NCBI GenBank assembly: GCA_020248265.1
Contig: JADCHX010000004.1
Location: 229,473-293,472 of the forward strand
DNA from: Rhodocyclaceae bacterium
Lineage (GTDB): Bacteria; Pseudomonadota; Gammaproteobacteria; Burkholderiales; CAIKXV01
Length of the DNA: 64,000 nucleotides
Direction: 5' to 3'
The position numbers and the translations under genes were made by a program. This document shows positions 27,431 through 41,651 of the stretch, piece after piece. A model generated the notes under the pieces. That model saw nothing but the letters and a program-made list of their open reading frames with translations. It did no database searches and was not told where the DNA came from. Position 1 is the stretch's first letter; each line of letters starts with the position of its first letter.

Positions 27431-28429
27431 ATGCATCGTCGTCCGCACCCCGCCCGGGCCGTCGTGCCTGCCGTCCTGTTCTCGGCCGGCGTTGGCTGGC
27501 TCGCCGGCCCGTCCGATGCCGCGGCCCAGTCCGGAAAGTGGCCGGAGCGGCCGATCCGCACCATCGTCGCCTATGCACCCGGCGGCGGCACGGACGTCGT
27601 GGCGCGCCTGCTGACGCCCCGGATCTCCGAAGAACTTGGCCAGCCGGTCGTGCTCGACAACCGGCCAGGCGCCGGCGGGACCATCGGCACCGAACTCGTG
27701 GTTCGCTCGAACCCGGACGGCTATACCCAGCTGGTGATCCCGTCCAGCTATGCCAGCAGCGCACCGCTGTACAAGCTCAGTTTCGATCCGATCAAGGACA
27801 TCACGCCGATCAGCCTGATCGGCATCGGTCCGCTGGTGATGCTGGTGCATCCAGCCTCGAAGATCACGACGCTGAAGGAAATGATCGAGTTCGCGCGCGC
27901 CAACCCGGGCAAGGTGAGCTTCGGGTCGTCCGGCATCGGCGGCACGCCGCACCTGTCCGGCGAACTGCTGCAGCAGCTCACCGGCATCCAGCTCTCGCAT
28001 GTGCCATACAAGGGCGACGGCCCGGCGATGGCCGACCTGATGGGCAACCACATCACCGCCGCGTTCGCCGCCGGTGCGTCTGCCGTACCGCAGGTGCGCG
28101 GCGGCAAGCTGCGCGCGCTCGGTGTCACCACCGAAAAGCGCGCGCCGGGTGCCCCCGAGCTGCCGGCGATGAGCGAGACAGTCCCCGGCTTCTCGTCCAG
28201 CACCTGGTACGGGCTGGTGGGTCCGGTCGGGCTGCCGAAGCCGGTGGTCGACCGGATGAGCCAGGTGATGAAGCGCGTGCTCGAGAGGCCCGAGGTACAG
28301 GAGCGGTTGCGCGCGGACGTCGTCGAGCCGACGCCGGCGGCCACCGCGCAGGATTTCACTCGGTTCATCCAGAGCGAGATCGCGCTCTGGACCAAGGTGA
28401 TCCGCACCGGGAAGATCCGTATCGAATGA
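27431..28429 (+). CDS. Bug/TctC-family binding protein (5 of 15)
   Basis: Periplasmic solute-binding protein, 332 aa from ATG 27431 with GGAGG nine bases before it. The signal peptide has n-region HRRPHPARA and ends at DAAAQ. The ligand loop is YAPGGGTD, and DNRPGAGG, NPDGYTQL, HVPYKGDGP and GKLRALGV follow. The stop is followed directly by a palindromic repeat element that separates it from the next Bug gene. Confidence 0.92.
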   Translation: MHRRPHPARAVVPAVLFSAGVGWLAGPSDAAAQSGKWPERPIRTIVAYAPGGGTDVVARLLTPRISEELGQPVVLDNRPGAGGTIGTELVVRSNPDGYTQLVIPSSYASSAPLYKLSFDPIKDITPISLIGIGPLVMLVHPASKITTLKEMIEFARANPGKVSFGSSGIGGTPHLSGELLQQLTGIQLSHVPYKGDGPAMADLMGNHITAAFAAGASAVPQVRGGKLRALGVTTEKRAPGAPELPAMSETVPGFSSSTWYGLVGPVGLPKPVVDRMSQVMKRVLERPEVQERLRADVVEPTPAATAQDFTRFIQSEIALWTKVIRTGKIRIE

Positions 28430-28450
28430 GCGCAGGCTGCTGGGCGGGTT

Positions 28451-28588
28451 GCGGGTTGGGGTCAGGTCTTGAGTTTTGCATCGCAGATGCAAAACTCAAG
28501 ACCTGACCCCAACCCGCAAAACTCAAGACCTGACCCCAACCCGCGTGTGACCCCAACCCGTGTGACCCCAACCCGTGACCCCAACCCG
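28451..28588. repeat. Palindromic element, copy 1, with degenerate tandem tail
   Basis: Perfect inverted repeat of 32 bases (28451-28482 and 28486-28517) around a three-base loop GCA; two further outer pairs match. The arm core is GGGGTCAGGTCTTG followed by AGTTTTGCATC. The right arm is partly repeated at 28516-28544, and the 13-mer TGACCCCAACCCG then recurs at 28548-28560, 28563-28575 and 28576-28588 (five copies in all). It begins 22 bases after a stop codon. It resembles REP/BIME-type repeats mobilised by RAYT transposases, though no transposase is in the window. Confidence 0.85.
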
Positions 28589-28600
28589 CCGGCCGTCGCC

Positions 28601-28629
28601 TTGACCCGGTTTTTGCGCCCGTGTAGTGT
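28601..28629 (+). promoter_or_regulatory. Candidate sigma-70 promoter for the Bug 6 operon
   Basis: TTGACC (28601-28606) and TAGTGT (28624-28629) are separated by 17 bases, 30 bases upstream of the start at 28659. The -10 is weak but the -35 and spacing are good. A TGTGATCACA palindrome overlaps the -10, the expected place for a repressor site. Confidence 0.45.
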
Positions 28630-28636
28630 GATCACA
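28627..28636. promoter_or_regulatory. Palindromic operator TGTGATCACA
   Basis: Perfect 10-base palindrome that overlaps the -10 box and start region of the Bug 6 operon promoter. The same core lies in the divergent region upstream of Bug 13 at 46128-46139. GntR-type regulators bind such short palindromes, but none is encoded nearby. Confidence 0.45.
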
Positions 28637-28658
28637 ACATTTCCTGGGTGAGGACTGC

Positions 28659-29645
28659 ATGGCGCTGCATGCGATGAAGAGGCATTCCGTTCGGTGGTCC
28701 ACGCTGTTGGCTGGCTTGCTCGTGGCCGCCACCGCGATGGCCCAGCCTGCCTTTCCGTCGAAGCCGATACGGGTGATCAACCCGTTCCCGCCCGGCGGCC
28801 CGGTCGATGTCGTGGGCCGTCCGGTGTTCGACCGCCTGCGCATCGCACTCGGCCAGCCGGTGATCATGGACCACCGCCCGGGTGCGGGCTCGATGATCGG
28901 CTCGGCGGCCGTCGCGAAGGCCGCGCCCGACGGCTACACCCTGCTTGCCACCGCCGGGCAGCACACGATCAACCTGAGCGTGTACGCGAAGGTGCCGTAC
29001 GACACGGTGAAGGACTTCGCATCGGTCAGCATGCTGGCCATCGGCCCCTACGTGTTCGTCGTGCATCCGTCGGTGCCGGCCCGCTCGATGAAGGAACTTG
29101 TCGCGCTCGCCCGACGGCTGCCCGGAAAGATGACCTATGCCTCGGCCAGTCCGGGCAGCGGCTTCCACATGGCTTCCGAACTGCTCAACCTGATGGCCGG
29201 CATCAAGACCCTGCATGTGCCGTACAAGGGCGGGGCGCCGGCAGGCATCGCGCTGCTCGGCGGGGAAGTCGACATGATGTTCTCCAGCCCGGCAGTGGTG
29301 CTGCCGCATGTGCAGTCGGGCCGGATGCGTGCACTCGCGGTGACCACCCCTGCGCGTTTCGGACAGTTGCCCGAGGTGCCCACGATGGCCGAGGCTGGCC
29401 TCGCCGGATTCGACGCTCAGTCGTGGTACGGTATGTTCGCGCCGGCTGCCACGCCGAGGGAAACCATCGCCTTCATCGCCGACCAGCTCGATCGCGTGCT
29501 GAAGACGCCCGAGATCCGGGAAGCCTACCGGCTGGCCGGGCTCGATCCGGTCGGGGGCACGCCGGCCTTCTTCGACGAGCGGGTAAAGAGCGACATCGCG
29601 AAATGGGCGCGGGTGGCGCGCGACGCACGCGTGCAGGTCGACTGA
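28659..29645 (+). CDS. Bug/TctC-family binding protein (6 of 15)
   Basis: Periplasmic solute-binding protein, 328 aa; ATG 28659, signal peptide with KRHSVR and cleavage at TAMAQPAFPS. The ligand loop is FPPGGPVD and the usual DNRPGAG motif reads DHRPGAG. First gene of a seven-gene operon that continues with RidA, bicupin, isochorismatase-like and CocE-like enzymes and two more Bug genes, so it is probably the capture protein for the compound those enzymes degrade. Confidence 0.92.
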   Translation: MALHAMKRHSVRWSTLLAGLLVAATAMAQPAFPSKPIRVINPFPPGGPVDVVGRPVFDRLRIALGQPVIMDHRPGAGSMIGSAAVAKAAPDGYTLLATAGQHTINLSVYAKVPYDTVKDFASVSMLAIGPYVFVVHPSVPARSMKELVALARRLPGKMTYASASPGSGFHMASELLNLMAGIKTLHVPYKGGAPAGIALLGGEVDMMFSSPAVVLPHVQSGRMRALAVTTPARFGQLPEVPTMAEAGLAGFDAQSWYGMFAPAATPRETIAFIADQLDRVLKTPEIREAYRLAGLDPVGGTPAFFDERVKSDIAKWARVARDARVQVD

Positions 29646-29677
29646 CCTCCCGCGACCGATCATTCCCGGAGACATGC

Positions 29678-30121
29678 ATGGGCGACACTAAACGCATCGA
29701 AGAGATCACCCGCAGCAGCCATCCGATCCCGGAGCGCAGCGCCGAGCTGCCGTACTCACCGGCTGTCGTGATCAGTGGCCCCGTGGATACGATCTATCTG
29801 TCCGGCATGACCGCCGCTCCGCTGTACCACTCGCATCCGCACATCCGCGAAGAGCATTTCCATGCGCCGGACATCGAGACACAGGTGCGCCGGGCGATGG
29901 ACAAGATCAAGCTGATCCTCGAGAAGGAAGGGCTGACGCTGCGCCACATCGTGAAGATGACGAAGTACCTGACCGACATGCGCGACCAGGAAGGTGCCTC
30001 GAACACGGTGCGCGAGTACCTCGGCGACTGGAAGCCGGCCAGCACGACGATCTGCGTGCACTGCCTGAACCAGCCGGGTGCCCGGATCGAGATCGACGTT
30101 ACTGCCGTCAGGCCGCGCTGA
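29678..30121 (+). CDS. RidA/YjgF/UK114 family protein
   Basis: Single RidA-fold protein of 147 aa. ATG 29678 is preferred to an out-of-frame ATG four bases earlier and has GGAG six bases upstream. The C-terminal GARIEIDVTAV carries the Arg that binds the carboxylate of imines or enamines in active RidA proteins. The N-terminus is longer than in minimal RidA. Its neighbours (bicupin, cysteine hydrolase) recall the RutB-RutC pairing, where RidA-type RutC works on aminoacrylate. Confidence 0.87.
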   Translation: MGDTKRIEEITRSSHPIPERSAELPYSPAVVISGPVDTIYLSGMTAAPLYHSHPHIREEHFHAPDIETQVRRAMDKIKLILEKEGLTLRHIVKMTKYLTDMRDQEGASNTVREYLGDWKPASTTICVHCLNQPGARIEIDVTAVRPR

Positions 30122-30163
30122 AGCGCAGCCGGCCGAAGAGCCGGCAACGAAGGGAGGAGCAAC

Positions 30164-31009
30164 GTGGTCTGTATCGTCCATGAAGGCGAGGTCGAGTCGA
30201 CGGCCTGCGGGCGCGGCGTGCGCCGGCGCGCGATGCTCGACCGGGCGCGCATTCCGGCGACGCGCGTGCTGGCCGACCGCATCGACTTCGATGCGGGTGG
30301 CCGCCTCGACCTCTCGCTGCCGGCCGACAGCCTCGGCTGGTTCCTCGTCCTGGACGGCGCATTGCAGCTCGAACTCGACGGTGCAGTGCATGCGCTGCAG
30401 GAGGCCCATGCGGTCGTGCTGCCGATCGGATGCCGCGGATCGCTGTCGGCAGGATCGGGCGGCGCCCGCCTGCTGCTGGCTGAAGTGCCGCAGGCGCACA
30501 GCCTCGACCCGGGCATCGCCGCAAACCCGCCCCGGCTGCGCATCGTCGACTGGGCGCACGAGCCGGTGCTCGATTCGAAGCACGATGCCCGCCGGCGCAT
30601 CTACGTCGCGACGCCGAAGCTCACTGGCAACAAGGCGCTGAAGGCCGAGATCATCGTCTATCCGCCAAACACCGACGGATCGAACCACCACCACGAGGGT
30701 GCAGAGCATTTCATGTACGTGATCGCCGGCGAGTCGACCGGCTATTCGGACGAGGTGCCGCATGCGTACCGGGCCGGCGACCTGGTCTACCATCCGGACG
30801 GCGAACGCCATTACACATCGACCGGCGCGGTGGGCAAGACCTTCATCGAATTCTTCGTGCCCGCCGAGTACCGTACGGTCTGGGTGGACGATGCGCGGGT
30901 CTGCACCTGGACGCCGACCGGCCGCGATTCGCGTGGTGGAAAGCCCTCGCGCGAGATCGCCGCGCACGATTCGAAGGCAGCGGCAGTGGCCGTACCGGAA
31001 GATCTCTGA
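30164..31009 (+). CDS. Bicupin protein
   Basis: Two-cupin protein of 281 aa, GTG start behind GGGAGGAG. The C-terminal cupin has a complete metal site: HHHEGAEHF (HxH and Glu) and PDGERHY (second motif His). The N-terminal cupin (about 40-110) has the strands but no metal-binding His, so it is probably structural. Ureidoglycine aminohydrolase and related metal-dependent bicupins have this size, but the ligand pattern does not match closely enough to name an activity. It lies between RidA and the isochorismatase-like gene. Confidence 0.8.
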   Translation: MVCIVHEGEVESTACGRGVRRRAMLDRARIPATRVLADRIDFDAGGRLDLSLPADSLGWFLVLDGALQLELDGAVHALQEAHAVVLPIGCRGSLSAGSGGARLLLAEVPQAHSLDPGIAANPPRLRIVDWAHEPVLDSKHDARRRIYVATPKLTGNKALKAEIIVYPPNTDGSNHHHEGAEHFMYVIAGESTGYSDEVPHAYRAGDLVYHPDGERHYTSTGAVGKTFIEFFVPAEYRTVWVDDARVCTWTPTGRDSRGGKPSREIAAHDSKAAAVAVPEDL

Positions 31010-31036
31010 AGTCCGCAGCATGCGCCGGAGCCACCG

Positions 31037-31729
31037 TTGAGCATCGAACAGGACCTTGAAGCCGCGCAGCGGCTCGCCCACCGCCCGTTGCTGGTGACGC
31101 TCGAGCAGAAGGTCGAGCCGGCGCACACCGCGCTGTTGGTGATCGACATGCAGAACGACTTCTGTGCGAGTGGTGGCATGGTGTCGAAGGACGGGCGCGA
31201 CATCTCCGAGGCACAGCGCATGGCAGCCCGCCTGCCGCCGCTGCTGTCGGCCGCGCGCGAGGCCGGCGTGCTGTGCATCTTCGTGCGCTGCGAGTACACG
31301 TCGGAAGGCAATGCCTACCTGTCGGACCCCTGGCTCGAGCAGGCGGTGCGCGAACGCAAGGGTGGCTTCACCACCATCCCGGTGTGCACGAAGGACTCGT
31401 GGGCGGGTGACTGGTATGAAGACATCCGACCGGCAGACGGAGACATCGTGGTGGTCAAGAACCGCTACGACGCGTTCCAGGGCACGAACCTGGATCTCGT
31501 TCTACGCTCGCACGGCATCCGCACGGTGGTGCTGACCGGCGTGGTCACCAACGTCTGCGTCGAGACGACGGCGCGTGCGGCTTTCGTACACGACTACTAT
31601 GTCGTGATGGCCGAGGACGGCTGTGCCGCCTACGTGCCGGAAGACCATGTACAGACGATGCGCAACATCCGGCGCTTCTTCGGCGTGACGCCGTCGATCG
31701 CGGAGCTGCGCGCAACGTGGAATCGCTGA
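31037..31729 (+). CDS. Isochorismatase-like cysteine hydrolase
   Basis: Cysteine hydrolase of 230 aa with the triad Asp37 (VIDMQNDF), Lys141 (VVVKNRYDAF) and Cys174 (TNVCVETTARAA). Start is TTG 31037 with GGAG six bases upstream; no ATG or GTG fits the N-terminus. The enzymes nearest in kind are RutB, biuret hydrolase and N-carbamoylsarcosine amidase, all of which release an amine or carbamate from an amide. With RidA next to it this suggests an amide or ureide degradation route. Confidence 0.88.
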   Translation: MSIEQDLEAAQRLAHRPLLVTLEQKVEPAHTALLVIDMQNDFCASGGMVSKDGRDISEAQRMAARLPPLLSAAREAGVLCIFVRCEYTSEGNAYLSDPWLEQAVRERKGGFTTIPVCTKDSWAGDWYEDIRPADGDIVVVKNRYDAFQGTNLDLVLRSHGIRTVVLTGVVTNVCVETTARAAFVHDYYVVMAEDGCAAYVPEDHVQTMRNIRRFFGVTPSIAELRATWNR

Positions 31730-31768
31730 GGCGGCGCCGGCACGGCGGGAGCCGACGGCAGGGGGAAG

Positions 31769-33520
31769 GTGTTGGAGAAGACTGAACTGCGCGACGGGAT
31801 GCGCATCCTGTGGGATGCACCGATCCCGATGGACGACGGCATCGTGCTGCGCGCCGACGTATTCCTGCCACCGGGCGAGGGCCGGTATCCGGTGATCCTG
31901 TCCTATGGGCCATACGGCAAGGGACTCGCCTTCCAGGACGGCAACAAGGCGGCATGGGAGCGGCTGATCGCCCTGCACCCGGACGTGGCGGAGGGCTCGA
32001 CCAACCTCTACCAGACCTGGGAACTGGTCGATCCAGAGAAGTGGGTGCCCGATGGCTACGCGGTGGTGCGCGTCGATGGCCGCGGAACCGGTCGCTCGCC
32101 GGGCGCTGTCGATCCATGGTCGCCGCGCGAGACGCGCGACTTCCATGACTGCATCGAGTGGGCGGGCGTGCAGCCGTGGAGCAGCGGCAAGGTCGGGCTC
32201 AACGGCATCTCGTACTACGCGATGAATGCCTGGCAGGTGGCGTGCCTGAAGCCGCCGCACCTCACGGCGATCGTCACCTGGGAAGGTTCGTCCGACTTCT
32301 ATCGCGAGGCGACGCGCCACGGCGGCATCTTCTCGCGCTTCCTCACCAACTGGTTCCCGCGCGCGGTGCATCGGTCGCAGCACGGCTACGGCGAGCGCGG
32401 CTTCCGAAGCCGGGCCACCGGGGAACTGATCGCCGGGTCGGAGACGTTGCCGGACGATGAACTGGCACGTAACCGGATCGACTTCAACCAGTGGATCCTC
32501 GATCATCCGTTCGACGACGAGGCGCATCGCGAACGATCGCCCGACCTGTCGCAGGTCGAGGTGCCGTTCCTCACTGCGGCCAACTGGGGCGGGCAGGGGC
32601 TTCATACCCGCGGCAATTTCGAAGCCTTCGTGTGCGCTCCGGCGAAGCAGAAGTGGCTCGAAGCGCATGGCGGCGCGCACTGGGAAAGCTTCCACACCAC
32701 GCGCTGCGAACGGATGCAGAAGCGCTTCTTCGGGCACTTTCTGAAGGGCGAAGATACCGGCTGGGATACGCAGCCGCGGGTGCTGCTGCAGGTTCGCCAT
32801 CCCGACCGGTTCGAGGAGCGGGCTGAAGGCGAATGGCCGATCGCGCGTACTCAGTGGACGAAGTACTACCTCGATCCGACGACGATGGCGTTCGGCACCG
32901 GTGAACCCGGCGTGGCGACATCGCTCGCCTACCAGACCGGGGGAGACGGCCTTCTGTTCAGCACGCCGCCGCTCGAGGCGCCGATGGAGATCACCGGGCC
33001 GGTGGCCGCGAAGCTGCGGCTGAGTTCCGACAGCACCGATGCCGACGTGTTCCTGGTGCTGCGCGTGTTCGCACCGGACGGCACCGAGGTCGCGTTCCAG
33101 GGATCGAACGATCCGAGGACGCCGGTCGGGCTGGGCTGGCTGCGTGCCTCGCATCGCAAGCTGGATCCCTCGCGTTCGCTGCCGTACCGCCCATGGCATG
33201 TCCATGACGAGGTGCAGCCACTGGTGCCTGGCGTACCGGTGGACCTCGATGTCGAGATCTGGCCGACCTGCATCGTGGTGCCGGCCGGGTATCGACTGGC
33301 GTTGTCGGTGCGCGGTTGCGACTACGCCTACCCCGGTCCGCCGCTGAGCATCCCCGGCGTGCACTACACGCTGACCGGTGTCGGGCCCTTCCTGCACGAC
33401 CATCCCGAAGACCGGCCGCCGGAAGTTTTCGGCGGCACGAATGTCCTGCATTTCGAACCGGGCAGACAGCCGTACGTGCTGCTGCCGGTGATCCCGCACG
33501 CGCGGAACGGAGGAGATTGA
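31769..33520 (+). CDS. CocE/NonD-type hydrolase (X-Pro dipeptidyl-peptidase S15 family)
   Basis: Large serine hydrolase of 583 aa: alpha/beta-hydrolase core to about residue 350, with a C-terminal jelly-roll domain (about 390-575) typical of CocE esterase and X-Pro peptidase-like acylases. The nucleophile is Ser148 in NGIS148YYA. There is no signal peptide. GTG 31769 or TTG 31772 can serve as start; GGGGGAAG is just before. It probably removes an acyl or ester group from the compound imported by the flanking Bug proteins. Confidence 0.88.
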   Translation: MLEKTELRDGMRILWDAPIPMDDGIVLRADVFLPPGEGRYPVILSYGPYGKGLAFQDGNKAAWERLIALHPDVAEGSTNLYQTWELVDPEKWVPDGYAVVRVDGRGTGRSPGAVDPWSPRETRDFHDCIEWAGVQPWSSGKVGLNGISYYAMNAWQVACLKPPHLTAIVTWEGSSDFYREATRHGGIFSRFLTNWFPRAVHRSQHGYGERGFRSRATGELIAGSETLPDDELARNRIDFNQWILDHPFDDEAHRERSPDLSQVEVPFLTAANWGGQGLHTRGNFEAFVCAPAKQKWLEAHGGAHWESFHTTRCERMQKRFFGHFLKGEDTGWDTQPRVLLQVRHPDRFEERAEGEWPIARTQWTKYYLDPTTMAFGTGEPGVATSLAYQTGGDGLLFSTPPLEAPMEITGPVAAKLRLSSDSTDADVFLVLRVFAPDGTEVAFQGSNDPRTPVGLGWLRASHRKLDPSRSLPYRPWHVHDEVQPLVPGVPVDLDVEIWPTCIVVPAGYRLALSVRGCDYAYPGPPLSIPGVHYTLTGVGPFLHDHPEDRPPEVFGGTNVLHFEPGRQPYVLLPVIPHARNGGD

Positions 33521-33521
33521 A

Positions 33522-34511
33522 ATGGCTTCATCGAAGAACGTCGCCCTGCGCGGATCGACCGTGGCAGCGGTGGCCCTGCTGTCGCTGGCCGGAGCCCTGT
33601 CCAGCGGCGTGCTTGCCCAGTCCTATCCGTCGCGCCCGGTACGCGTGATCGTGCCGTTCCCGCCGGGCAGCGCCCCGGACCAGATCATGCGTTTCGTGAC
33701 GCAGCACATGGCGCAGACCTCGGGCCAGCCGTTCATCATGGACAACCGGCCGGGCGCCAACGGTAACATCGGCGTCGAGGTCGCGGCGCGTGCGACGCCG
33801 GATGGCTACACGCTGGTCAGCGCGAACAACACCACCTTCGCCGGCAACGTGAGCCTCTATCGCAAGCTGCCGTTCGACATCCAGAAGGACTTCACCCCGG
33901 TGGCGCGCTTCATCACCACCGGGCTGATCCTCGCCGTGCGCAACGACCTGCCGGCGAAGGACCTGCGCGAGTTCATCACGCTGGCGAAGGCGCGCCAGGG
34001 AAAGCTCACCGCGGGGCAGGCATCGGCCGGCATGCGGGTGTCGATCGGCATGATGCGTTCGCTCGGCGGCGCCGAACTGCTCGAGGTCTCGTACAAGGGT
34101 ACGCCACAGGCGGTGACCGACGTGATCGGTGGCCAGATCGATTCCACCTTCTCCGACTTCGCCGCCGGGCTGCAACTGGTGCGCGCCGGCAAGATGCGCG
34201 CGCTCGGCGTCACCACCGCGAGGCGCAGCCCGACGCTGCCCGAGGTGCCGGCGATCGGCGAAGTGGTGCCCGGCTACGACGTGACGGTCTGGGCCGGGCT
34301 CGCCGCACCGTCGGGCGTGCCGAAGCCGATCATCGACCAGCTGTGGGCGCTGTCGTCGAAGGCGCTGGCCGACGAGGGCGTGCGCAAGTCGCTCAACTCG
34401 CTCAGCTTCAGCGTCGAGCCGATGAACCCGGTCGAGTTCGCCGCGTATGTGCGCAGCGAGACCCAGCGCTGGGCGAAGATGGTGAAGGATGCGGCGATAG
34501 AGCCGGAGTGA
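33522..34511 (+). CDS. Bug/TctC-family binding protein (7 of 15)
   Basis: Periplasmic solute-binding protein, 329 aa, starting one base after the hydrolase stop with GGAG ten bases upstream. Signal peptide ends at GVLAQSYPSRP. The ligand loop FPPGSAPD has Ser in place of the second Gly, a feature shared only with Bug 8 in this window. The stop is followed after six bases by the second palindromic element. Confidence 0.92.
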   Translation: MASSKNVALRGSTVAAVALLSLAGALSSGVLAQSYPSRPVRVIVPFPPGSAPDQIMRFVTQHMAQTSGQPFIMDNRPGANGNIGVEVAARATPDGYTLVSANNTTFAGNVSLYRKLPFDIQKDFTPVARFITTGLILAVRNDLPAKDLREFITLAKARQGKLTAGQASAGMRVSIGMMRSLGGAELLEVSYKGTPQAVTDVIGGQIDSTFSDFAAGLQLVRAGKMRALGVTTARRSPTLPEVPAIGEVVPGYDVTVWAGLAAPSGVPKPIIDQLWALSSKALADEGVRKSLNSLSFSVEPMNPVEFAAYVRSETQRWAKMVKDAAIEPE

Positions 34512-34517
34512 CGGGGC

Positions 34518-34570
34518 GGGGTCAGGTCTTGCCTTTTGCCTCGTAGAGGCAAAAGGCAAGACCTGACCCC
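34518..34570. repeat. Palindromic element, copy 2
   Basis: Perfect 25-base inverted repeat (34518-34542 and 34546-34570), loop GTA. The arm begins GGGGTCAGGTCTTG as in copy 1 but continues CCTTTTGCCTC; the three changed positions are each compensated in the opposite arm. It starts six bases after a Bug stop codon and precedes another Bug gene. Confidence 0.85.
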
Positions 34571-34643
34571 AACTACTCCCGACTGGACGGCCGGCGCCCC
34601 GTGCCGCATGATGATTGGCAATGCATCTCCGTGGAGTCACTGC

Positions 34644-35639
34644 ATGGTTCACTGTCCGATTAGCCGCCGCGCTGCCGCCTGGCTGCCGCTTGCCGGCACC
34701 GCCACCCTGCTCGTCGCGGGCCCTGTCGCGGCACAGCCTGCCTGGCCGTCGCGGCCGATCACGGTAATCGTTCCGCTCGCGGCCGGGAGCGCCGCCGACG
34801 TCTCGCTGCGGGTACTGACCGAGCGGTTGTCGTCCGTGCTGAAGCAGCCGTTCGTGGTCGAGAACCTGCCGGGCGCGGCTGGCCTGCCCGGGACGGCGCG
34901 TGCTGCGCGCGCGGCAGCCGACGGCCATACGCTGGCGCTGCTCAACAGCAGCATCATGACCACGCTGCCGCATGTCTACGCGAAGATCGACTACGACCCG
35001 TTGAAGAGCTTCGCGCCGATCACCACGGTGGTGAGCATCCCGACGGTGCTGGTCGTCCATCCCAGCCTGCCGGTGAAGACGGTGAAGGAACTCGTCGCGC
35101 TGGCGAAGGCGCGGCCGGACCAGTTGCTCTACTCGTCCGGTGGCGTCGGCAGTCCGCAGCACCTGTCGATGGCGATGCTCGGCTCGATGGCCGGCATCCG
35201 GATGACCCATGTCGCGTACAAGGGCGCGGTGCCGGCGACCACCGACCTGGTCGGCGGCCATGTGCAGCTGATGTTCAACGGGCTGGCCACGCCGCTGCCG
35301 CACATCCGTTCCGGCAAGCTGCGCGCGCTGGCGATGGCGGGTGCACGCCGCTCCGACCTCCTGCCCGAGCTGCCGACGGTGCAGGAAGCAGGCGTGGCCG
35401 GCTACGAGTACGAGCAGTGGGCCGGGCTGTTCGCGCCAGCAGCGACGCCGCCGGAGATCGTCGCCCGCCTGAACGCGGAGTCGGCGCGCATCCTGAAGTC
35501 GCCGGACGTGAAGGAGAAGCTGTCGCAGCTCGGCCTCGAGGCGCAGGGCGGCAGCGCGGAGGACCTCGCGCGCGCGGTGCGCAACGAACTGCCACGCATG
35601 GCCGAGATCATCCGGCAGGTGGGGATCAAGCCCGAGTAG
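34644..35639 (+). CDS. Bug/TctC-family binding protein (8 of 15)
   Basis: Periplasmic solute-binding protein, 331 aa. ATG 34644 (MVHCPISRRAAAW) has GGAG eight bases before it; upstream in-frame codons run through the palindromic repeat. Ligand loop LAAGSAAD, with Gly-Ser as in Bug 7. The two follow one another and are probably an old tandem pair. It ends 36 bases before a convergent dehydrogenase gene. Confidence 0.9.
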   Translation: MVHCPISRRAAAWLPLAGTATLLVAGPVAAQPAWPSRPITVIVPLAAGSAADVSLRVLTERLSSVLKQPFVVENLPGAAGLPGTARAARAAADGHTLALLNSSIMTTLPHVYAKIDYDPLKSFAPITTVVSIPTVLVVHPSLPVKTVKELVALAKARPDQLLYSSGGVGSPQHLSMAMLGSMAGIRMTHVAYKGAVPATTDLVGGHVQLMFNGLATPLPHIRSGKLRALAMAGARRSDLLPELPTVQEAGVAGYEYEQWAGLFAPAATPPEIVARLNAESARILKSPDVKEKLSQLGLEAQGGSAEDLARAVRNELPRMAEIIRQVGIKPE

Positions 35640-35675
35640 CGCCGCGTCGGCCAGGCAGCAGCGCCTCGCCCGGGA

Positions 35676-36608
35676 TCAGTCGCCGCCCGGCGCCGGGCGA
35701 TCGATGCCGTTCAGGCGCTCCATCACCCTGCACACGGCGGCCATGTCTTCCTTGTCCATGCCCTGCGCCATCGCAGCGGTGAACACCTGCGCCGACGCCG
35801 AGAACAGCGGCACCGCACATTCCAGCGACTTCGCGAAGCGGCCGATCACCTGCATGTCCTTCTGCCACACGTCCATCTTTGAAGCGACATCCCGGTCGTA
35901 GAGGCCCTCTACCATCTGCGGGGCGCGCAGTTCGAACATGCGCGAGTTGCCGGCGCCGCTGCGCACCAGGTCGTAGATCGCCGACAGGTCGAGCCCGGCC
36001 CGTTCGGCCAGCACCATCGCCTCGGCGGTGGCCACGGTGTGCACCGCCACCAGCAGGTTGGCGATGAACTTCACGCGGCTGGCATTGCCGAACGCGCCGG
36101 TATGGTGGCTGGCCCGCGCGCAGCCGGCGAAGGCCGGCGCGATCCGTTCATGGTCCTCGGCCCGACCGCTGGTATAGACGACGAGGTCGCGCGTGCGCGC
36201 CTGCGCGCCGGTGCCGCTGATCGTGCAGTCGAGCATCTGCATGCCGGCGCTGGCGAGCAGCTCGCGGCACGCTTCCTTGTCGGGGATATCGAAGGTGCCG
36301 CAGTCCGCGACCAGCAGCGCCGGATTGCCCGCGGTGACCAGGCCCTGCTCGCCCGAGATCACCGCGCGCAGGATGTCCGCGCCGGGGAGCACGGTGAGGA
36401 CTTCATCGACCGCGCGCGCAACCGCTGCCGGTGTTGCCGCCGGCGTGCCGCCGGCCGCGGTGAACGCCTGCATGCGTGCGGCATCCACGTCGTGCCCGAC
36501 CACCGTCCAGCCGGCGTCGAGCAGGTGCCCGGCCATCGCCGAGCCCATGATGCCCAGGCCGATGAAGCCGACGCGGCGCGCCGGCGGGCGCCCCGATGCA
36601 GCGGTCAC
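35676..36608 (-). CDS. 3-hydroxyisobutyrate dehydrogenase-like NAD(P)-dependent oxidoreductase
   Basis: Beta-hydroxyacid dehydrogenase family protein, 310 aa. Rossmann motif GLGIMG is at 17-22, the substrate motif reads CTISGTG (usually APVSGG) and the catalytic Lys180 with Asn184 lies in VKFIANLL. The unusual substrate motif suggests a substrate other than hydroxyisobutyrate or tartronate semialdehyde. Last gene of the operon hydrolase/Bug/GAF/dehydrogenase. Confidence 0.87.
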   Translation of the reverse strand: MTAASGRPPARRVGFIGLGIMGSAMAGHLLDAGWTVVGHDVDAARMQAFTAAGGTPAATPAAVARAVDEVLTVLPGADILRAVISGEQGLVTAGNPALLVADCGTFDIPDKEACRELLASAGMQMLDCTISGTGAQARTRDLVVYTSGRAEDHERIAPAFAGCARASHHTGAFGNASRVKFIANLLVAVHTVATAEAMVLAERAGLDLSAIYDLVRSGAGNSRMFELRAPQMVEGLYDRDVASKMDVWQKDMQVIGRFAKSLECAVPLFSASAQVFTAAMAQGMDKEDMAAVCRVMERLNGIDRPAPGGD

Positions 36609-36635
36609 TTGCGGTTCGCGCCCGGCGATCGCCGG

Positions 36636-37094
36636 TCAGGCGCGATCGAGGATCGCATGCGCCGTCCGGATCGCGTCCTCGACCGCGGCCACGTCCTGCG
36701 GCGTCCACTTGCGCGGCGACGGGTTGTAGTGCACCGAGATCCACCCGGTCAGCGCCTCGCCGCGGATCACTGGCGCGAGGATCTGCGCCTTGGTGCCGTA
36801 GATCTGCATCAGTTCCTTCGGCGGCTGGAACTCGGCGTTCGCACAGTCGTCCTGCACCAGGATGCGCCGCTCGCGCTCGAGCCAGGACGCGGTCTGGGTC
36901 TTGCGCTGCTGCAGCGAGGTCTCGACCGCGATCGAGTTGATGCCTTCGCCGCGCCCTTCCGCGACCACGCCGTTGACCGCGAAGCCGTGCGCGGGCACGT
37001 CGAGGCGGATCGTCGTGCGGCTCGCGCCGACCTTGCGCAGCAGGTCGTCCATCAGTGCCTGGAATTCCGCGACCAGTGATGCTGTCGTTGCCAC
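36636..37094 (-). CDS. GAF-domain protein
   Basis: Stand-alone GAF-type small-molecule-binding domain, 152 aa. GTG 37094 with GGAGGC five bases upstream gives the best start; the longer open frame upstream is arginine-rich and overlaps the Bug gene. The pattern RKVGASRTTIRLD, then the INSIAVETSLQQ and LVQDDCANAEFQPP strands and a final GWISVHYNPSPRKWTPQDV is typical. With no output domain it may sense the transported compound and act through a partner encoded elsewhere. Confidence 0.75.
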   Translation of the reverse strand: MATTASLVAEFQALMDDLLRKVGASRTTIRLDVPAHGFAVNGVVAEGRGEGINSIAVETSLQQRKTQTASWLERERRILVQDDCANAEFQPPKELMQIYGTKAQILAPVIRGEALTGWISVHYNPSPRKWTPQDVAAVEDAIRTAHAILDRA

Positions 37095-37110
37095 GTGCTG
37101 CCTCCGTTGT

Positions 37111-38115
37111 CTATTCGATCTTGATGCCGGCGGCCTTGATGACCTTCGCCCACTGGGCGATCTCTTCCGCGAGGCTGCGCCCCAGTTCCTCCGGCGTGCT
37201 GCTGCCCGCGACCACCGCCTGGGCCGCCAGCCGATCGCGGACCTCGGCATTGTCCACGGTCTTGCGAACCGCTGCATTCAGCGTGGCGATCACCTCCTTC
37301 GGCGTGCCGGTGGGCACGTACAGCCCGAAGATCGGCGTCACCTCGAAGCCGGGGTAGCCCGACTCGGCGATGGTCGGCACGTTCGGCATCGTCGGCAGGC
37401 GCTGCGGGCTGCTGACGCCGAGCGCGCGCAGGCGTCCCGCGTTGACCTGACCGAGCCCGGCGGTCACGGTCACGAAGCCGATCTCGGACTCGCCCGCCGC
37501 GACCGCGGCCACCGCCGGCGGACCGCCCTTGTAGGCGACATGGGTGAGTGCGCTGCCGGTCCGGCTCTTGAACAGTTCTCCCGCCAGGTGCTGGCCGGAG
37601 CCGATGCCGCCCGATGCATAGTTGAGCGCGCCCGGCTTCGCGCGCGCGAGCGCGACCACGTCCTTCACCGTCTTCACCGGCAGCGACGGATGCGAGGCGA
37701 GCAGGTAGGCGCCGGTGCCCACGCGCGACACCGGCATGAAGTCGCGAAGGGCGTCGTACGGCAGGTTCGCGTACAGGCTGCGGCTGGGTGCGAGCACCAC
37801 GCTCACGCCCATGAACATCGTGTGCCCGTCGGCTGGTGCCTTCGCCGCGACCTCGGCACCGATGTTGCCGCCCGCGCCCGGGCGGTTCTCGACGATCACC
37901 GTCTGGCCGAGCGCCTCGCCGAGCCGCGGCGACAGGATGCGCGCGATCACGTCGCCGGCACCGCCGGCCGGGAATGCGTCGATGATGCGCACCGGCCGGG
38001 TGGGGAAGCCCTGTGCCAGCGCATCGACCGGTGCCAGCGGGACAAGACCTGCAAGGCCGGCCAGCAGTGCCAGCCCGGTGTTCGCGAAGCCTGCTACAGG
38101 TGCTGTCTGAACCAT
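37111..38115 (-). CDS. Bug/TctC-family binding protein (9 of 15)
   Basis: Periplasmic solute-binding protein, 334 aa, ATG 38115. The start overlaps the end of the upstream alpha/beta hydrolase by 22 bases, indicating coupling. Signal peptide of two Ala/Leu-rich stretches ends at VDALAQGFPTRP. The ligand loop is FPAGGAGD. Second gene of the operon hydrolase/Bug/GAF/dehydrogenase. Confidence 0.9.
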   Translation of the reverse strand: MVQTAPVAGFANTGLALLAGLAGLVPLAPVDALAQGFPTRPVRIIDAFPAGGAGDVIARILSPRLGEALGQTVIVENRPGAGGNIGAEVAAKAPADGHTMFMGVSVVLAPSRSLYANLPYDALRDFMPVSRVGTGAYLLASHPSLPVKTVKDVVALARAKPGALNYASGGIGSGQHLAGELFKSRTGSALTHVAYKGGPPAVAAVAAGESEIGFVTVTAGLGQVNAGRLRALGVSSPQRLPTMPNVPTIAESGYPGFEVTPIFGLYVPTGTPKEVIATLNAAVRKTVDNAEVRDRLAAQAVVAGSSTPEELGRSLAEEIAQWAKVIKAAGIKIE

Positions 38116-38990
38116 GCGGCGGTCTCCTGGTGGATGATGCTGGCAGTGGCGGGGTTGCGGAACTCGTAGGTATCGTAGTGTCCGGCACCGGGCAGCCGCA
38201 CCAGCCGGCGCGGTTCGCGGCAGCGCTCGAAGCAGGCGAGCTGTTCCTCGACCGGGACCAGCGCGTCACGGTCGGCCCAGAACATAAGCACCGGCCGTGG
38301 CGCGATGCGGTCGACCACCCATTCGGGGCGGTAGCGCATGCAGGCCTCGGCGCTCTCCAGGTCGATGTCCTCCGCCGGCAGCGGCTGTCCCTCCGGGAAC
38401 TGCGCGGCGCGGGTGCGCAGCGCATCCGGGTCGCGCAGCATGATCTCGCCACGCTGCACGATCGCCGGCGTGCCTTCGCGCACCCGGCGCCGCGCATCGG
38501 CGTCCACGCGGTCGCGGAATTCCAGCCACTCCCAGGGGCGCCGCAGCAGGCGCAGCCAGCGCTCGCCGTTGGTCACGGCCGCGCTGGTCACCAGCACCTT
38601 CACCCGCTCGTCGTGGGCCGTGACCCAGATGCCGTGCGCGCCGCCGAAGCTCGTGCCGAACACGCCCAGCCGCTGCGGATCGATGCCGGGGATCGTCTGC
38701 ATGAACGACAGCGCATCGAACGCGTCCTGTGCCTGCTCCAGCGGACGGTGTCGGCCGCGGATGCCTTCGCTCTTGCCATGGCCGCGGTAGTCGAAGGTGA
38801 ACACGAACCAGCCGTCGGCGCACAGCCGGCGCACCAGGTGGATGCAGTCGAAGTGCGGGTTGCCGCCGTAGCCGGCGAGCACCAGGATGGCGGGACGGGG
38901 CGGGTCGCCGACCTTCCAGTCGGGCGGCTGGTGGAGGTAGCCAACGATGCGCAGGCCATCGCTGAAGAAGGAGACTTCGGAGTCGGCCAT
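38094..38990 (-). CDS. Alpha/beta hydrolase (acetylxylan-esterase/dienelactone-hydrolase-like)
   Basis: Cytoplasmic serine hydrolase, 298 aa from ATG 38990. The nucleophile elbow is GTS114FGG; the acid Asp lies in FWADRDAL and the His in GAGHYD. The LAGYGG oxyanion loop near residue 40 precedes the FDYRGHGKSEG motif. It leads a minus-strand operon with a Bug protein, divergent from MmgE/PrpD across 85 bases. Function: ester or thioester hydrolysis of unknown substrate. Confidence 0.87.
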   Translation of the reverse strand: MADSEVSFFSDGLRIVGYLHQPPDWKVGDPPRPAILVLAGYGGNPHFDCIHLVRRLCADGWFVFTFDYRGHGKSEGIRGRHRPLEQAQDAFDALSFMQTIPGIDPQRLGVFGTSFGGAHGIWVTAHDERVKVLVTSAAVTNGERWLRLLRRPWEWLEFRDRVDADARRRVREGTPAIVQRGEIMLRDPDALRTRAAQFPEGQPLPAEDIDLESAEACMRYRPEWVVDRIAPRPVLMFWADRDALVPVEEQLACFERCREPRRLVRLPGAGHYDTYEFRNPATASIIHQETAAWFRQHL

Positions 38991-39075
38991 GGGTTGTCCC
39001 GTACTGTCCCGTCCCTGTGAACGAATCAGCATACTACGGTACGCTCGGACGCACGAGACCGACGGAAAGGACGCC

Positions 39076-40461
39076 ATGATGAGTGCCGACGGATTGCCCC
39101 GCGGGCCTGCCTACCTCCAGACACTGTCGACCTGGCTCGCGCGCACCCGGCTGGAAGACCTGCCGCCGGAGATCGTCGAGCGCGGCCGCTGGATCATGGC
39201 CGACTGCATCGGTGCGGTGGTCGGCGGGCTGCGCGTGCCTGAGATGCAGGCCTTCATGGACAAGCACCTCGCCGACGGCGGACCCTGTCCGGCTTCGGTG
39301 CTGGCCAGCGGCCGGCGCACCGAACCGCTGAAGGCCGCGCTGGTGAACGGCATGGCTGGCACCTGGCTCGAGCAGGACGAAGGCAACCTGCATGCCGGCG
39401 GCGGCCACCCCGGCATCCAGCTCGCCACCGCGACGCTCGCCGCCGCACAGCAGCGCAATTCCAGCTTCGGCGACATGCTGCTTGCGTTCATCCTCGGCTA
39501 CGAGGCCTCGTCGCGGGTGAGCCGTGCATCGAAGCTGAAGCTGGTGTTCCATCCGCATGCGACCTCGGGCCCGATCGGCGCGGCAGTGGCGGTTGCGAAG
39601 CTCGACCATGTCGACGCTGCCGAGATGATGACCACCCTGAACGTGGGCGCGACGCTGGGCATCGCCACCTCGCGCAATGCGATCCTCGAAGGCGTGACGG
39701 TACGCAACGCCTATGCCGGCCTGAGCAACTACATGGGCCTGTTCTCGCGGCAGATGGTCCAGTGCGGCTTCACCGGCGAGTTCGACGGCGTGGCCAGCGC
39801 GCATGGCAAGGGCGGCTTCTCCGACGTGATCGACCGTGACCATGTGGTCGAGCGGCTGGGCGAGTTCTGGGTGATCGCGCGCAGCTACTTCAAGATCCAT
39901 TCGTCCGGCCGCTATGCGCACTCGGGCATCGACCTCGCCGAGCAGGCGGTGCGCGACGCACCGGGCGGGAAGATCGATCCTGAATCGATCGAGCGCATCG
40001 ATTTCAGCACCTACTTCCACGCGAAGATGCTCGACCGGCAGGACATCGACACCAGCTTCGGCGCGCGCTTCTCGATCCCGTTCGGCGTCGCGACGATGAT
40101 CTACCACGGTGGTCCGGACCTCGAGAATTTCGAGGATGCGGCGGTGGCCAACCCGGTGATCCAGTCGCTCGCCCGGCGCGTGTTCGTCACCGAGAACCCG
40201 GAGTACACGAAGGTCTCGCTCGGCATGCAGAAGACCGACATGAAGATCACCTTCCGCGACGGGCGCACCTACGAGGCCCATGCCGATTACATCCGCGGCG
40301 AGCCGCAGAACCCGCATCCGCCGGAGGCGCTGCGCGGGAAGTTCATCCGGATCACGCGCGATACCTGGGGCGAGGCGCATGCGGCACGGGTGCACGATGC
40401 GATCATGGGCGCGGCGCCCGGTGCTTCGTTCCAGGCGTTCGCCGACGAAAACCGGCTTTAG
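39076..40461 (+). CDS. MmgE/PrpD family protein (second copy)
   Basis: Paralogue of the protein at 19232-20614, 461 aa; shared blocks include GTWLEQDEGN, GHPGIQLATA, the SSRVSRA and SGRYAHSGID motifs and TSFGARFSIPF. ATG 39076 or ATG 39079 may be used; GGAAAGGA is just upstream. It stands alone and divergent from the hydrolase operon, followed by the third palindromic element. Cofactor-free dehydratase or isomerase of a di- or tricarboxylate is the family expectation. Confidence 0.87.
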   Translation: MMSADGLPRGPAYLQTLSTWLARTRLEDLPPEIVERGRWIMADCIGAVVGGLRVPEMQAFMDKHLADGGPCPASVLASGRRTEPLKAALVNGMAGTWLEQDEGNLHAGGGHPGIQLATATLAAAQQRNSSFGDMLLAFILGYEASSRVSRASKLKLVFHPHATSGPIGAAVAVAKLDHVDAAEMMTTLNVGATLGIATSRNAILEGVTVRNAYAGLSNYMGLFSRQMVQCGFTGEFDGVASAHGKGGFSDVIDRDHVVERLGEFWVIARSYFKIHSSGRYAHSGIDLAEQAVRDAPGGKIDPESIERIDFSTYFHAKMLDRQDIDTSFGARFSIPFGVATMIYHGGPDLENFEDAAVANPVIQSLARRVFVTENPEYTKVSLGMQKTDMKITFRDGRTYEAHADYIRGEPQNPHPPEALRGKFIRITRDTWGEAHAARVHDAIMGAAPGASFQAFADENRL

Positions 40462-40571
40462 CCTGCCGTGGGGTCACCTGCCGTGGGGTCAGGTCTTGAG
40501 TTTTGCATCGCAGGCGTAAGGCCCAAGAACCCAACCGGGCCAGGATGCAAAACTCAAGACCTGACCCCCAC
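40462..40571. repeat. Palindromic element, copy 3, with 31-base insertion in the loop
   Basis: Perfect 25-base arms (40485-40509 and 40544-40568) identical to the inner 25 bases of copy 1. The spacer is 34 bases: it begins GCA like the loop of copy 1 and continues with 31 additional bases that contain their own short inverted repeat (GGCCC and GGGCC). Immediately upstream a 15-base unit CCTGCCGTGGGGTCA occurs twice in tandem (40462-40476 and 40477-40491). It begins directly after the MmgE/PrpD stop. Confidence 0.85.
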
Positions 40572-40604: not shown

Positions 40605-41651
40605 ATGATGATGCACATGTCTTCGCCGGTGAACCGGCTCCTCCCGGTACCGGCCCGGTCATGCCGCGATGTCGCACGGCCGTCGCCGCTGCTCTGCGCC
40701 GTGTTCGCTGCAGCAGCGACGCTGGCGCTGGCCCTGCCCGCCGCAGCCCAGCAATGGCCTGCCAGGGGCATCATCGTCGTGTCGCCGTTCGCTCCGGGCG
40801 GTGCCAACGACCTTATCGCGCGCACGATGTCGGCCAAGCTCGCCGAGGCGCTGGGCGTCGCGGTCACGGTCGAGAACCGGGGTGGCGCTGGCGCCACGAT
40901 CGGCACTGCCTACGTGGCACGAGCGGCGCCGGACGGCTACACCCTGCTGGTGGCCGGCCAGAGCAGCCTCGCGTTCGCGCCTCACCTGTACGCGAAGCTG
41001 TCCTACGATTCGCTGCGCGACTTTGCGCCGATCATGAACGTCGCGCTCGGTCCGTATGCGCTGACCGTGAACGCGCGCGTGCCGGCGAAGACCGTGGCCG
41101 AGTTGATGAAGATCGCGCGCAGCAAGCCGCAGGCGCTGACCTTCGCCACCTCGGGTGCCGGCTCGGTTTCGCATCTCACGATGGAAACGCTGACCGCCTC
41201 GACCGGCATCGACCTGGTGCACGTGCCCTACAAGGGCATGGTGCCCGCGATCACCGCGATGACCAGCGGCGAGGTCGACATGATGTTCGCCGACCTGGGG
41301 CTGGTGCAACCGATGGTGCAGGCCGGCAAGCTGCGCGTGCTGGCGGTGTCGGGCCGTAACCGTTCCATCGCCGAGCCTTCGCTGCCCACGATGGTCGAGT
41401 CTGGCTACAAGGAAGTCGTCGGCGAGGGCCGCTTCGGCTTCCTCGCGCCGGCCGGCACGCCGAAGGAGATCATCGCGCGGTTGCACGGCATCCTGGCCAC
41501 GGCGGTGAAGGGCCAGGATGTGCGCGATCGTTTTGCCAAGCTCGGCTACGAGCCCACCAGCGACACGCCGGAGCAGTTCGCGGCGCTGATGAAGGCCGAA
41601 CATGAACGCTTCGGCAGGCAGATCCGCCAGTTGAAGATCAAGGCCGAGTAG
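40605..41651 (+). CDS. Bug/TctC-family binding protein (10 of 15)
   Basis: Periplasmic solute-binding protein, 348 aa from the first of four in-frame ATGs (40605, 40608, 40611, 40617); which is used cannot be decided. The signal peptide is long and ends at PAAAQQWPARG. Ligand loop FAPGGAND; VENRGGAGAT and APDGYTLL follow. First gene of the operon with the M29-like protein and the cysteine-cluster protein. Confidence 0.9.
   Translation: MMMHMSSPVNRLLPVPARSCRDVARPSPLLCAVFAAAATLALALPAAAQQWPARGIIVVSPFAPGGANDLIARTMSAKLAEALGVAVTVENRGGAGATIGTAYVARAAPDGYTLLVAGQSSLAFAPHLYAKLSYDSLRDFAPIMNVALGPYALTVNARVPAKTVAELMKIARSKPQALTFATSGAGSVSHLTMETLTASTGIDLVHVPYKGMVPAITAMTSGEVDMMFADLGLVQPMVQAGKLRVLAVSGRNRSIAEPSLPTMVESGYKEVVGEGRFGFLAPAGTPKEIIARLHGILATAVKGQDVRDRFAKLGYEPTSDTPEQFAALMKAEHERFGRQIRQLKIKAE

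Follow-up and report, generated by a model that had tools for sequence, protein, structure and literature searches.

The 64,000-nt window analyzed here (Rhodocyclaceae bacterium, assembly GCA_020248265.1, contig JADCHX010000004.1, positions 229,473 to 293,472) contains three long palindromes, at 28449-28519 (copy 1), 34518-34570 (copy 2) and 40485-40568 (copy 3). Our analysis indicates that these hairpins are probably non-autonomous copies of the terminal inverted repeats (TIRs) of a TIRYT-type, subclass 2.1-like Y1/HUH transposase of the same genome, which would cut and rejoin DNA about 7 nt outside the element, with the arms restored by self-templated fill-in. Mobility is supported by empty sites in relatives, by a copy number that tracks the transposase in the genus, and by co-occurrence of repeat and transposase in 274 genomes. 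New here are truncated copies outside the element, arranged in seamless tandem units whose host flank mostly measures 6-9 nt regardless of element length, as well as inverted-copied host flanks of up to 9 nt, clear in the source genome (G000), and purine-rich flanks, most so at positions -8 to -3. The copying of hairpins linked to TIRYT genes or to REP-associated tyrosine transposases (RAYTs; REP, repetitive extragenic palindrome) is poorly understood (PMC8266576), and these duplicated flank scraps of about 7 bases hint at how such elements copy.

The 14-mer that starts each arm, GGGGTCAGGTCTTG (the core), occurs 65 times in the 4.55-Mb source genome, compared to 0 occurrences of its backwards control, establishing a dispersed family of the kind that the first-pass annotation of the window had envisaged. 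The cores form 35 clusters, 34 of which are located outside predicted genes, with 14 in a convergent, 14 in a co-directional and 6 in a divergent setting and 1 inside a gene, as judged by our own simple gene caller, which may miss genes. Exact cores define 22 two-arm hairpins, and 15 of the 65 cores, two of which form the ends of the transposase gene, lack an exact partner up to 130 nt away and thereby resemble REP singlets; one-to-one pairing leaves 17 cores unpaired. A covariance model built from 17 copies recovered at least 45 matches at no fewer than 23 places, yet decayed copies may be missed, because 17 of the 23 places are training copies and 150 of 1354 first-look candidates were scored.

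Two Y1_Tnp genes are present in the source genome, L051 (G000:C24) and L052. The former sits between two inverted copies of the core, and is hence the predicted tyrosine transposase flanked by the same repeat that the first-pass annotation had proposed to look for. Its product (a frame of 351 codons) reaches 49.2 bits against Y1_Tnp, with a cut-off of 23, and displays the motifs NHYH, FQ and YVERNP (Y---NP type), while residues 309-344 at the C-terminus give sub-threshold matches to helix-turn-helix (HTH) models of the MarR, LacI, IclR, HTH_23, HTH_3 and Crp types. A PHROGs search returned no match. The transposase is bracketed by inverted cores also in the relatives G007, G004 and G003, and G009 holds a weaker transposase match with the core on one side only. 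Within the genus, the genomes with this first-type transposase possess 65 (G000), 29 (G003), 75 (G004), 41 (G007) and 16 (G009) cores, compared to 12, 6, 4, 2, 0 and 0 in the six genomes where no such transposase was found. In a set of 274 genomes from this class, which counts G000, the core is present in 26 of the 40 with a close homologue versus 30 of the 234 without (Fisher 1.5e-11; the homologue cut-off, E<=1e-60, was picked after the table had been seen). Variants such as GGGGTCAGTTCTCG are seen at the ends of the homologues themselves.

Extended to 20 bases, the arm matches at least 120 stretches, of which 80 loci were retrieved, and the titles among the matches listed span proteobacteria, Aminicenantes, Omnitrophota, Actinomycetota, Acidobacteria, Elusimicrobia and one Heimdallarchaeota metagenome-assembled genome (MAG). 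Since many of the matches are MAGs, misbinning is possible for single cases; several of the loci from other taxa carry the first-type transposase beside or between the arms. The Heimdallarchaeota locus (L226) contains two direct arm copies near a contig end, for which misbinning or very wide transfer are both possible.

Comparison of orthologous sites agrees with the mobile family that had been proposed from the window alone. Window site 1 is devoid of the element in six aligned relatives (G002, G004, G006, G007, G009 and G010), while in G003 the contig ends inside a copy (L116); G001, G005 and G008 are outside this comparison, and the original flank is not discernible from the empty relatives. 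Site 2 is empty in G009 and G007, the other relatives presenting a contig end or another neighbor. At site 3, G003 carries an element with the 34-nt loop reverse-complemented relative to G000, with one mismatch, at a contig end where an assembly effect is possible. Simple empty sites among 14 further loci include L069 (G010), L061 (G009), L066 (G002) and L078a (G002 and G009), and L061 in addition shows a single arm in G010 and a mid-deleted hairpin in G002. At L078:3025-4095, two G000 elements 1 kb apart are matched in G007 (L133) by a single element that connects the outer flanks, as if the segment between them had been deleted there.

A dnaE2-like gene (error-prone DNA polymerase, NCBIfam NF004225) accommodates an in-frame 87-nt element copy at L079:2960-3046 (G000:C10:78259-78345). 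This copy is shared by all five transposase-bearing genomes of the genus (orthologues L398-L401) and missing from G002, G006 and G010, with other, longer sequence at the site in G001 and G005 (G008 is not part of this comparison). REP insertions in DnaE2 genes have been reported previously (PMC3733652). In the dnaE2-like genes of G002 and G010, where the first-type transposase was not found, pieces resembling GGACCCC and GGGGTCA...ACCCC are visible. The first-pass annotation had regarded unpaired arms, or copies always tied to one gene family as coding sequence, as arguments against a mobile hairpin; unpaired arms do occur, namely the 15 cores mentioned above, and this one copy is coding, without either refuting mobility.

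We then turned to the sequence immediately outside the elements, counting identical sites once, skipping sites near contig ends and leaving out L254, L259, L264 and L287 as duplicates of G004/G007; these exclusions apply equally to the arm-match, foot-motif and flank-purine counts below. A second GGGGTC is located up to 120 nt outside 103 of the 307 core sites with enough upstream sequence, and at 68 of these 103 sites an identical flank of at least 5 nt lies outside both GGGGTC copies, as opposed to 0.4% of random flank pairs, with the non-zero shared lengths peaking at 7. Seamless tandem units of flank and truncated element (at least 4 nt each) were detected 55 times at 342 sites, versus 40 in 11280 random positions. 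The flank measures 6-9 nt in 43 of the 55 units, independent of the element length (rho 0.06, p 0.67), and the element part stops at 6-8 nt (GGGGTC, GGGGTCA or GGGGTCAG) in 28 and at 12 nt (GGGGTCAGGTCT) in 5 of them, the commonest junction being GGGGTCA^G, which is CC|TGACCCC on the opposite strand. Such units are also carried by isolates (Marinobacter halodurans, Alishewanella, Chitinolyticbacter and Legionella feeleii), and are thus not just an artefact of MAGs.

It is conceivable, albeit rather unlikely, that the transposase only moves the elements, and that the units, the inverted flanks described below and the matched arms arise through replication errors at a strong hairpin, by stalling, slippage and fold-back template switching. 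Long perfect hairpins are expected to stall replication, the inverted flanks and the flipped loop of G003 resemble template switches, and junction overlaps of 1-2 nt exist at 15 of the 103 sites with a second GGGGTC. Slippage however predicts variable flanks set by microhomology, while those observed are about 7 nt whatever the element part; moreover, the element parts stop at preferred points, and a bias in the composition of the outer flank is not predicted by slippage.

Such a bias is indeed present, as are flanks copied in inverted orientation. Summed perfect inverted flank runs amount to 85 for the 22 hairpins of G000 compared to 18.5 after shuffling (0/10000 shuffles), 44 versus 14.4 for 26 hairpins of G004 (0/10000), 20 versus 7.5 for 10 hairpins elsewhere in the genus (6/10000) and 24 versus 11.3 for 19 hairpins from other taxa (40/10000). 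The longest run, 9, belongs to G000, where the inverted identity over 12 nt is also elevated (131 versus 84.6; 0/10000). Across 216 outermost flanks, selected to have no other GGGTC or GACCC piece nearby, purines constitute 48-58% at positions -24 to -14, 56-62% at -13 to -9, 63-69% at -8 to -3, 59% at -2 and 30% at -1.

If the hairpins are indeed TIR copies of the transposase, the following route would connect these signatures. The transposase would act on the single-stranded hairpin, with the active site of the HUH enzyme about 7 nt outside the GGGG foot, where it may position, cut or rejoin the DNA. The cut would leave a 3'OH, from which short synthesis and rejoining could generate the seamless units of flank and truncated end; HUH cleavage yields a 5' phosphotyrosine together with a 3'OH able to prime synthesis or attack (PMC8266576). 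The 3' end of the hairpin may in turn self-prime on its own 5' arm and flank, yielding a perfect second arm and sometimes a copied flank. Fill-in of the 3' end on a 5'-tailed hairpin would produce an F-E-F' arrangement (flank, element, inverted flank), in which the tail limits the length of the runs, in line with what G000 shows. Arms rebuilt on their own template would stay matched, which would explain changes that appear compensated. Furthermore, restoring a symmetric REPIN from an asymmetric excised hairpin has been named a key issue (PMC3116915), and hairpin fill-in would solve it. The near-fixed flank distance and the preferred break points in independent genomes lead to definite predictions of the cut site and of arm restoration. 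As a tentative extension, which we regard as possible rather than likely, TIRYT transposases may in general be palindrome makers that cut and rejoin single-stranded DNA (ssDNA) about 7 nt outside the element, with self-copying restoring perfect symmetry in every round and sometimes drawing flank into the stem, and 7-nt units left behind in many phyla.

Several observations weigh against this interpretation. Regarding the direct units, 27 of the 103 sites that have a second GGGGTC share no flank, the flank length in the units is fuzzy (4-12), and neither C|T nor any other motif was found at the outer edge of the flank unit, so that cleavage at this edge is only putative. The purine excess climbs gradually from about -13, without a sharp edge at -8. 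Inverted flanks are clear in G000 only: the identity over 12 nt is similar to that of shuffles in G004 (101 versus 88.6; 661/10000), in the remainder of the genus (40 versus 34.5; 1657/10000) and in other taxa (63 versus 62.7; 5045/10000), and the inverted flank outside G000 thus comprises at most 2-5 nt in nearly all copies. Even in G000, 10 of the 22 elements have a run of 0-2, and the run is 0 for window copies 2 and 3. As for the transposase, the HTH matches of the L051 product are all below the cut-offs, as is NCBIfam REP_Tyr_transpos (69 of 80 bits), and a sequence search gave no PDB match. The exact core is absent from 14 of the 40 genomes with a close homologue, and several relatives are only 83-89% complete (83-84% for four of the six transposase-negative ones), meaning that some absences of transposase or copies may be gaps.

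Finally, short palindromes (GGGG...CCCC) without the full element exist at the element-free sites L078b (G002), L073 (G010), L059 (G010) and L077 (G002 and G010), and a pre-existing palindrome is accordingly possible at those sites. They raise the prospect that the element inserts into palindromes or repeats already in place, with the symmetric or repeated flanks having come first. We consider this improbable as a general explanation: the short palindromes may be deletion remnants, as two of them keep GGGGTCA...TGACCCC, no palindrome marks the empty sites L069 (G010), L061 (G009) and window site 2 (G009), and the joint repetition of flanks and truncated element ends would be left unexplained.

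The arms themselves carry a further imprint. After the common 14-mer, copies 1 and 3 of the window continue with AGTTTTGCATC and copy 2 with CCTTTTGCCTC, and the three differences of copy 2 (AG...A to CC...C) are all mirrored in the opposite arm, just as the first-pass annotation had stated. More broadly, bases 15-16 are the same in both arms of 69 of 80 hairpins, compared to 21.8 (maximum 35) when arms are shuffled among all hairpins and 42.7 (maximum 55) when the shuffling is confined to genome sets. In G004, CC occupies the left arm of 27 of 27 fetched hairpins and also the ends of the transposase, whereas AG is found in 14 of 21 hairpins of G000, where the transposase gene ends read AG on one side and AT on the other. 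Because the dinucleotide is genome-typical, the mirrored changes mark two subfamilies and no repeated repair of single copies; copy 2, one of three CC hairpins in G000, belongs to the second (CC) subfamily, which is resident in the relative G004.

In 17 aligned copies, selected by the exact core, 19 of the 25 pairs are invariant and 4 have changes on both sides (a number reached by 31/500 shuffles), with a covariation score of 0.072 versus 0.026 for shuffled alignments (0/500). With 19 of 25 pairs never varying in these copies, the linear arm is conserved too, and the earlier view that the folded form and not the linear sequence has been kept is therefore too strong, although the arm match on which it was based holds well beyond the window. 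Compensatory changes have already been reported for REPINs (PMC3116915). Moreover, subfamilies and self-copying produce the same pattern, and matched changes of hairpin arms hence need not signal selection on RNA folding.

It is very improbable that the hairpins are of use to the host as RNA or DNA structures (terminators or mRNA 3' ends) maintained by selection on folding. The very stable stems and the extragenic placement, with 14 clusters each in convergent and co-directional settings, would suit such a role, and a TTTT no more than 10 nt from the stem, seen in 3 of 44 strand views, exceeds the background of 31/9000. Nevertheless, the other 41 strand views lack such a T-run, the sites are often empty in relatives, the linear 14-mer is common to many phyla and does not vary among the aligned copies (whose selection was based on it), and one copy resides inside the dnaE2-like gene. 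An intrinsic terminator was rejected as an identity for the element, with TTTT following the stem in just those 3 of 44 views.

Regarding known systems, the family fits the TIRYT transposases (subclass 2.1) and not GTAG-type REP/RAYT, as judged from the motif GGGGTCAG, the arms on either side of the gene and the motifs of the protein. Di Nocera et al. 2013 (PMC3733652) described TIRYT genes whose TIRs carry GGGGWSAS and are spread as singles, dimers and clusters, and Quentin et al. 2018 (PMC6006769) connected subclass 2.1 to these genes. As in the TIRYT/TIRtron description, a RAYT-like HUH/Y1 transposase lies between inverted repeats with GGGGWSAS, here GGGGTCAG, and the arms are scattered, here as 65 cores, 35 clusters and 22 two-arm hairpins. 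The flank units of about 7 nt, the inverted host flank and the occurrence of the arm across phyla go beyond that description, the Figure 9 sequences and supplements of PMC3733652 aside. Shared with TnpAY1 of subclass 2.1 are the NHYH, Y---NP and FQ motifs, a long protein (351 codons here, with a median of 238 in the table of PMC6006769) and, for the linked TIRYT examples, TIRs with GGGG[AT][CG]A[CG]. The C-terminal HTH domain of subclass 2.1 is hinted at here by HTH-like matches below cut-offs. Unlike subclass 2.1, for which PMC6006769 reports the genes to have no REP-like repeats nearby, the TIR here is a hairpin family with matched arms. Thus, the TIRYT-type family is a known kind, while flank units and inverted flanks were not found in the available parts of the literature searched, supplements aside.

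Similarities to REPINs (Bertels and Rainey 2011, PMC3116915) include a mobile unit consisting of an inverted pair in one hairpin, stem changes that compensate each other, single arms left as remnants, and tandem clusters with flanks. In contrast to REPINs, there is no GTAG-type foot, a single arm is unfolded, and the clusters repeat about 7 nt of flank with truncated ends, not whole REPINs. GT[AG]G at the hairpin foot occurs in 20 of 55 flanks in G000, 7 of 64 in G004, and 9 of 34 and 14 of 145 further flanks, and as no fixed feature of the foot it led us to reject a GTAG-type REP/REPIN. Four single arms taken from copies 1 and 2 of the window show no folding advantage over shuffled sequence (44, 131, 200 and 117 of 200 shuffles equal them), while the extragenic position of 34 of the 35 clusters is shared with GTAG REPs. 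The resemblance to RAYT-mobilised REPs pointed out in the first-pass annotation extends to the Y1/HUH transposase and the dispersed family; the missing GTAG foot and the unfolded single arm depart from it, and TIRYT/TIR is the better fit. The TnpAREP of Corneloup et al. 2021 (PMC8266576) is likewise an HUH enzyme on hairpin ssDNA and cuts at C|T or C|A, comparable to the CC|TGACCCC junction here; unlike for those group 2 and 3 enzymes, the outer edge of the flank unit displays no C|T. A miniature inverted-repeat transposable element (MITE) of a DDE transposon was also rejected, as direct flank repeats of 3-12 nt, equivalent to a target-site duplication, were sought and seen in 0 of 49 two-arm elements.

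Within the window, all three palindromes are present as initially claimed, with 100% complementary arms of 34, 25 and 25 nt. Copy 1 has arms at 28449-28482 and 28486-28519 with a loop of 3, and the outermost 9 nt of each arm (ttgcgggtt/aacccgcaa) are beyond the GGGG boundary, and thus outside the element proper (28458-28510, AG subfamily). Copy 2 (arms 34518-34542 and 34546-34570, loop 3) belongs to the CC, and copy 3 (arms 40485-40509 and 40544-40568, loop 34) to the AG subfamily. Their DNA folds are far below those of shuffles (z -15.5, -12.3 and -10.0 for copies 1, 2 and 3), and all 7 exact matches of the 14-mer in the window fall in the three palindrome places. Copy 1 is followed by a nested array of shortened right arms on the minus strand (28511-28590), with AAAACTCAAGACCTGACCCC and then three TGACCCC units, each succeeded by 6-8 nt of the same flank, aacccg[c]. 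Outside copy 3, a tandem unit on the plus strand (40462-40476) consists of the 8-nt host flank cctgccgt and GGGGTCA, and the flank recurs at 40477-40484. The first-pass annotation had overlooked the nested array, this tandem unit and the fact that copy 1's outer 9 nt are not part of the element.

The distance from the stop codon of the upstream gene to the first GGGG is 28, 6 and 23 bases for copies 1, 2 and 3, and each copy precedes a TctC/Bug receptor gene (PF03401), both in agreement with the first-pass annotation. All adjoining genes are on the plus strand: TctC/Bug genes (PF03401) at 27464-28429 (start from our own gene caller) and 28722-29645 (alternative ATG start at 28659) surround copy 1, and others at 33522-34511 and 34644-35639 surround copy 2, while copy 3 lies between an MmgE/PrpD-family gene (39076-40461) and a TctC/Bug gene (40605-41651; PF03401). 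TctC/Bug thus accounts for 5 of the 6 hairpin-adjoining genes, and the whole window holds 16 TctC/Bug domains. The Bug linkage is local to the three window copies and not general, and a repeat tied to one gene family was rejected: a TctC domain is within 400 nt of just 6 of the 35 clusters, three of these in the window, and outside the window of 3 of 32 clusters compared to 315 of 5800 random positions. In G010 and G004, the block that separates copies 2 and 3 (34571-40484) is missing at this place, and the G010 junction retains a piece, CCTGACCCC, like an element end, suggestive of a rearrangement at these repeats.

The second Y1 gene, L052, has another palindrome on both sides, which is built on GGGGTCAGACCCC and contains the 11-mer GGGTCAGACCC. 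This second family comprises 125 copies in G000, often with 13-nt spacing (L052 and loci L367-L396). In G010 (L034/L365), the second-type transposase lies within an unusually long frame of 822 codons, perhaps a fusion.

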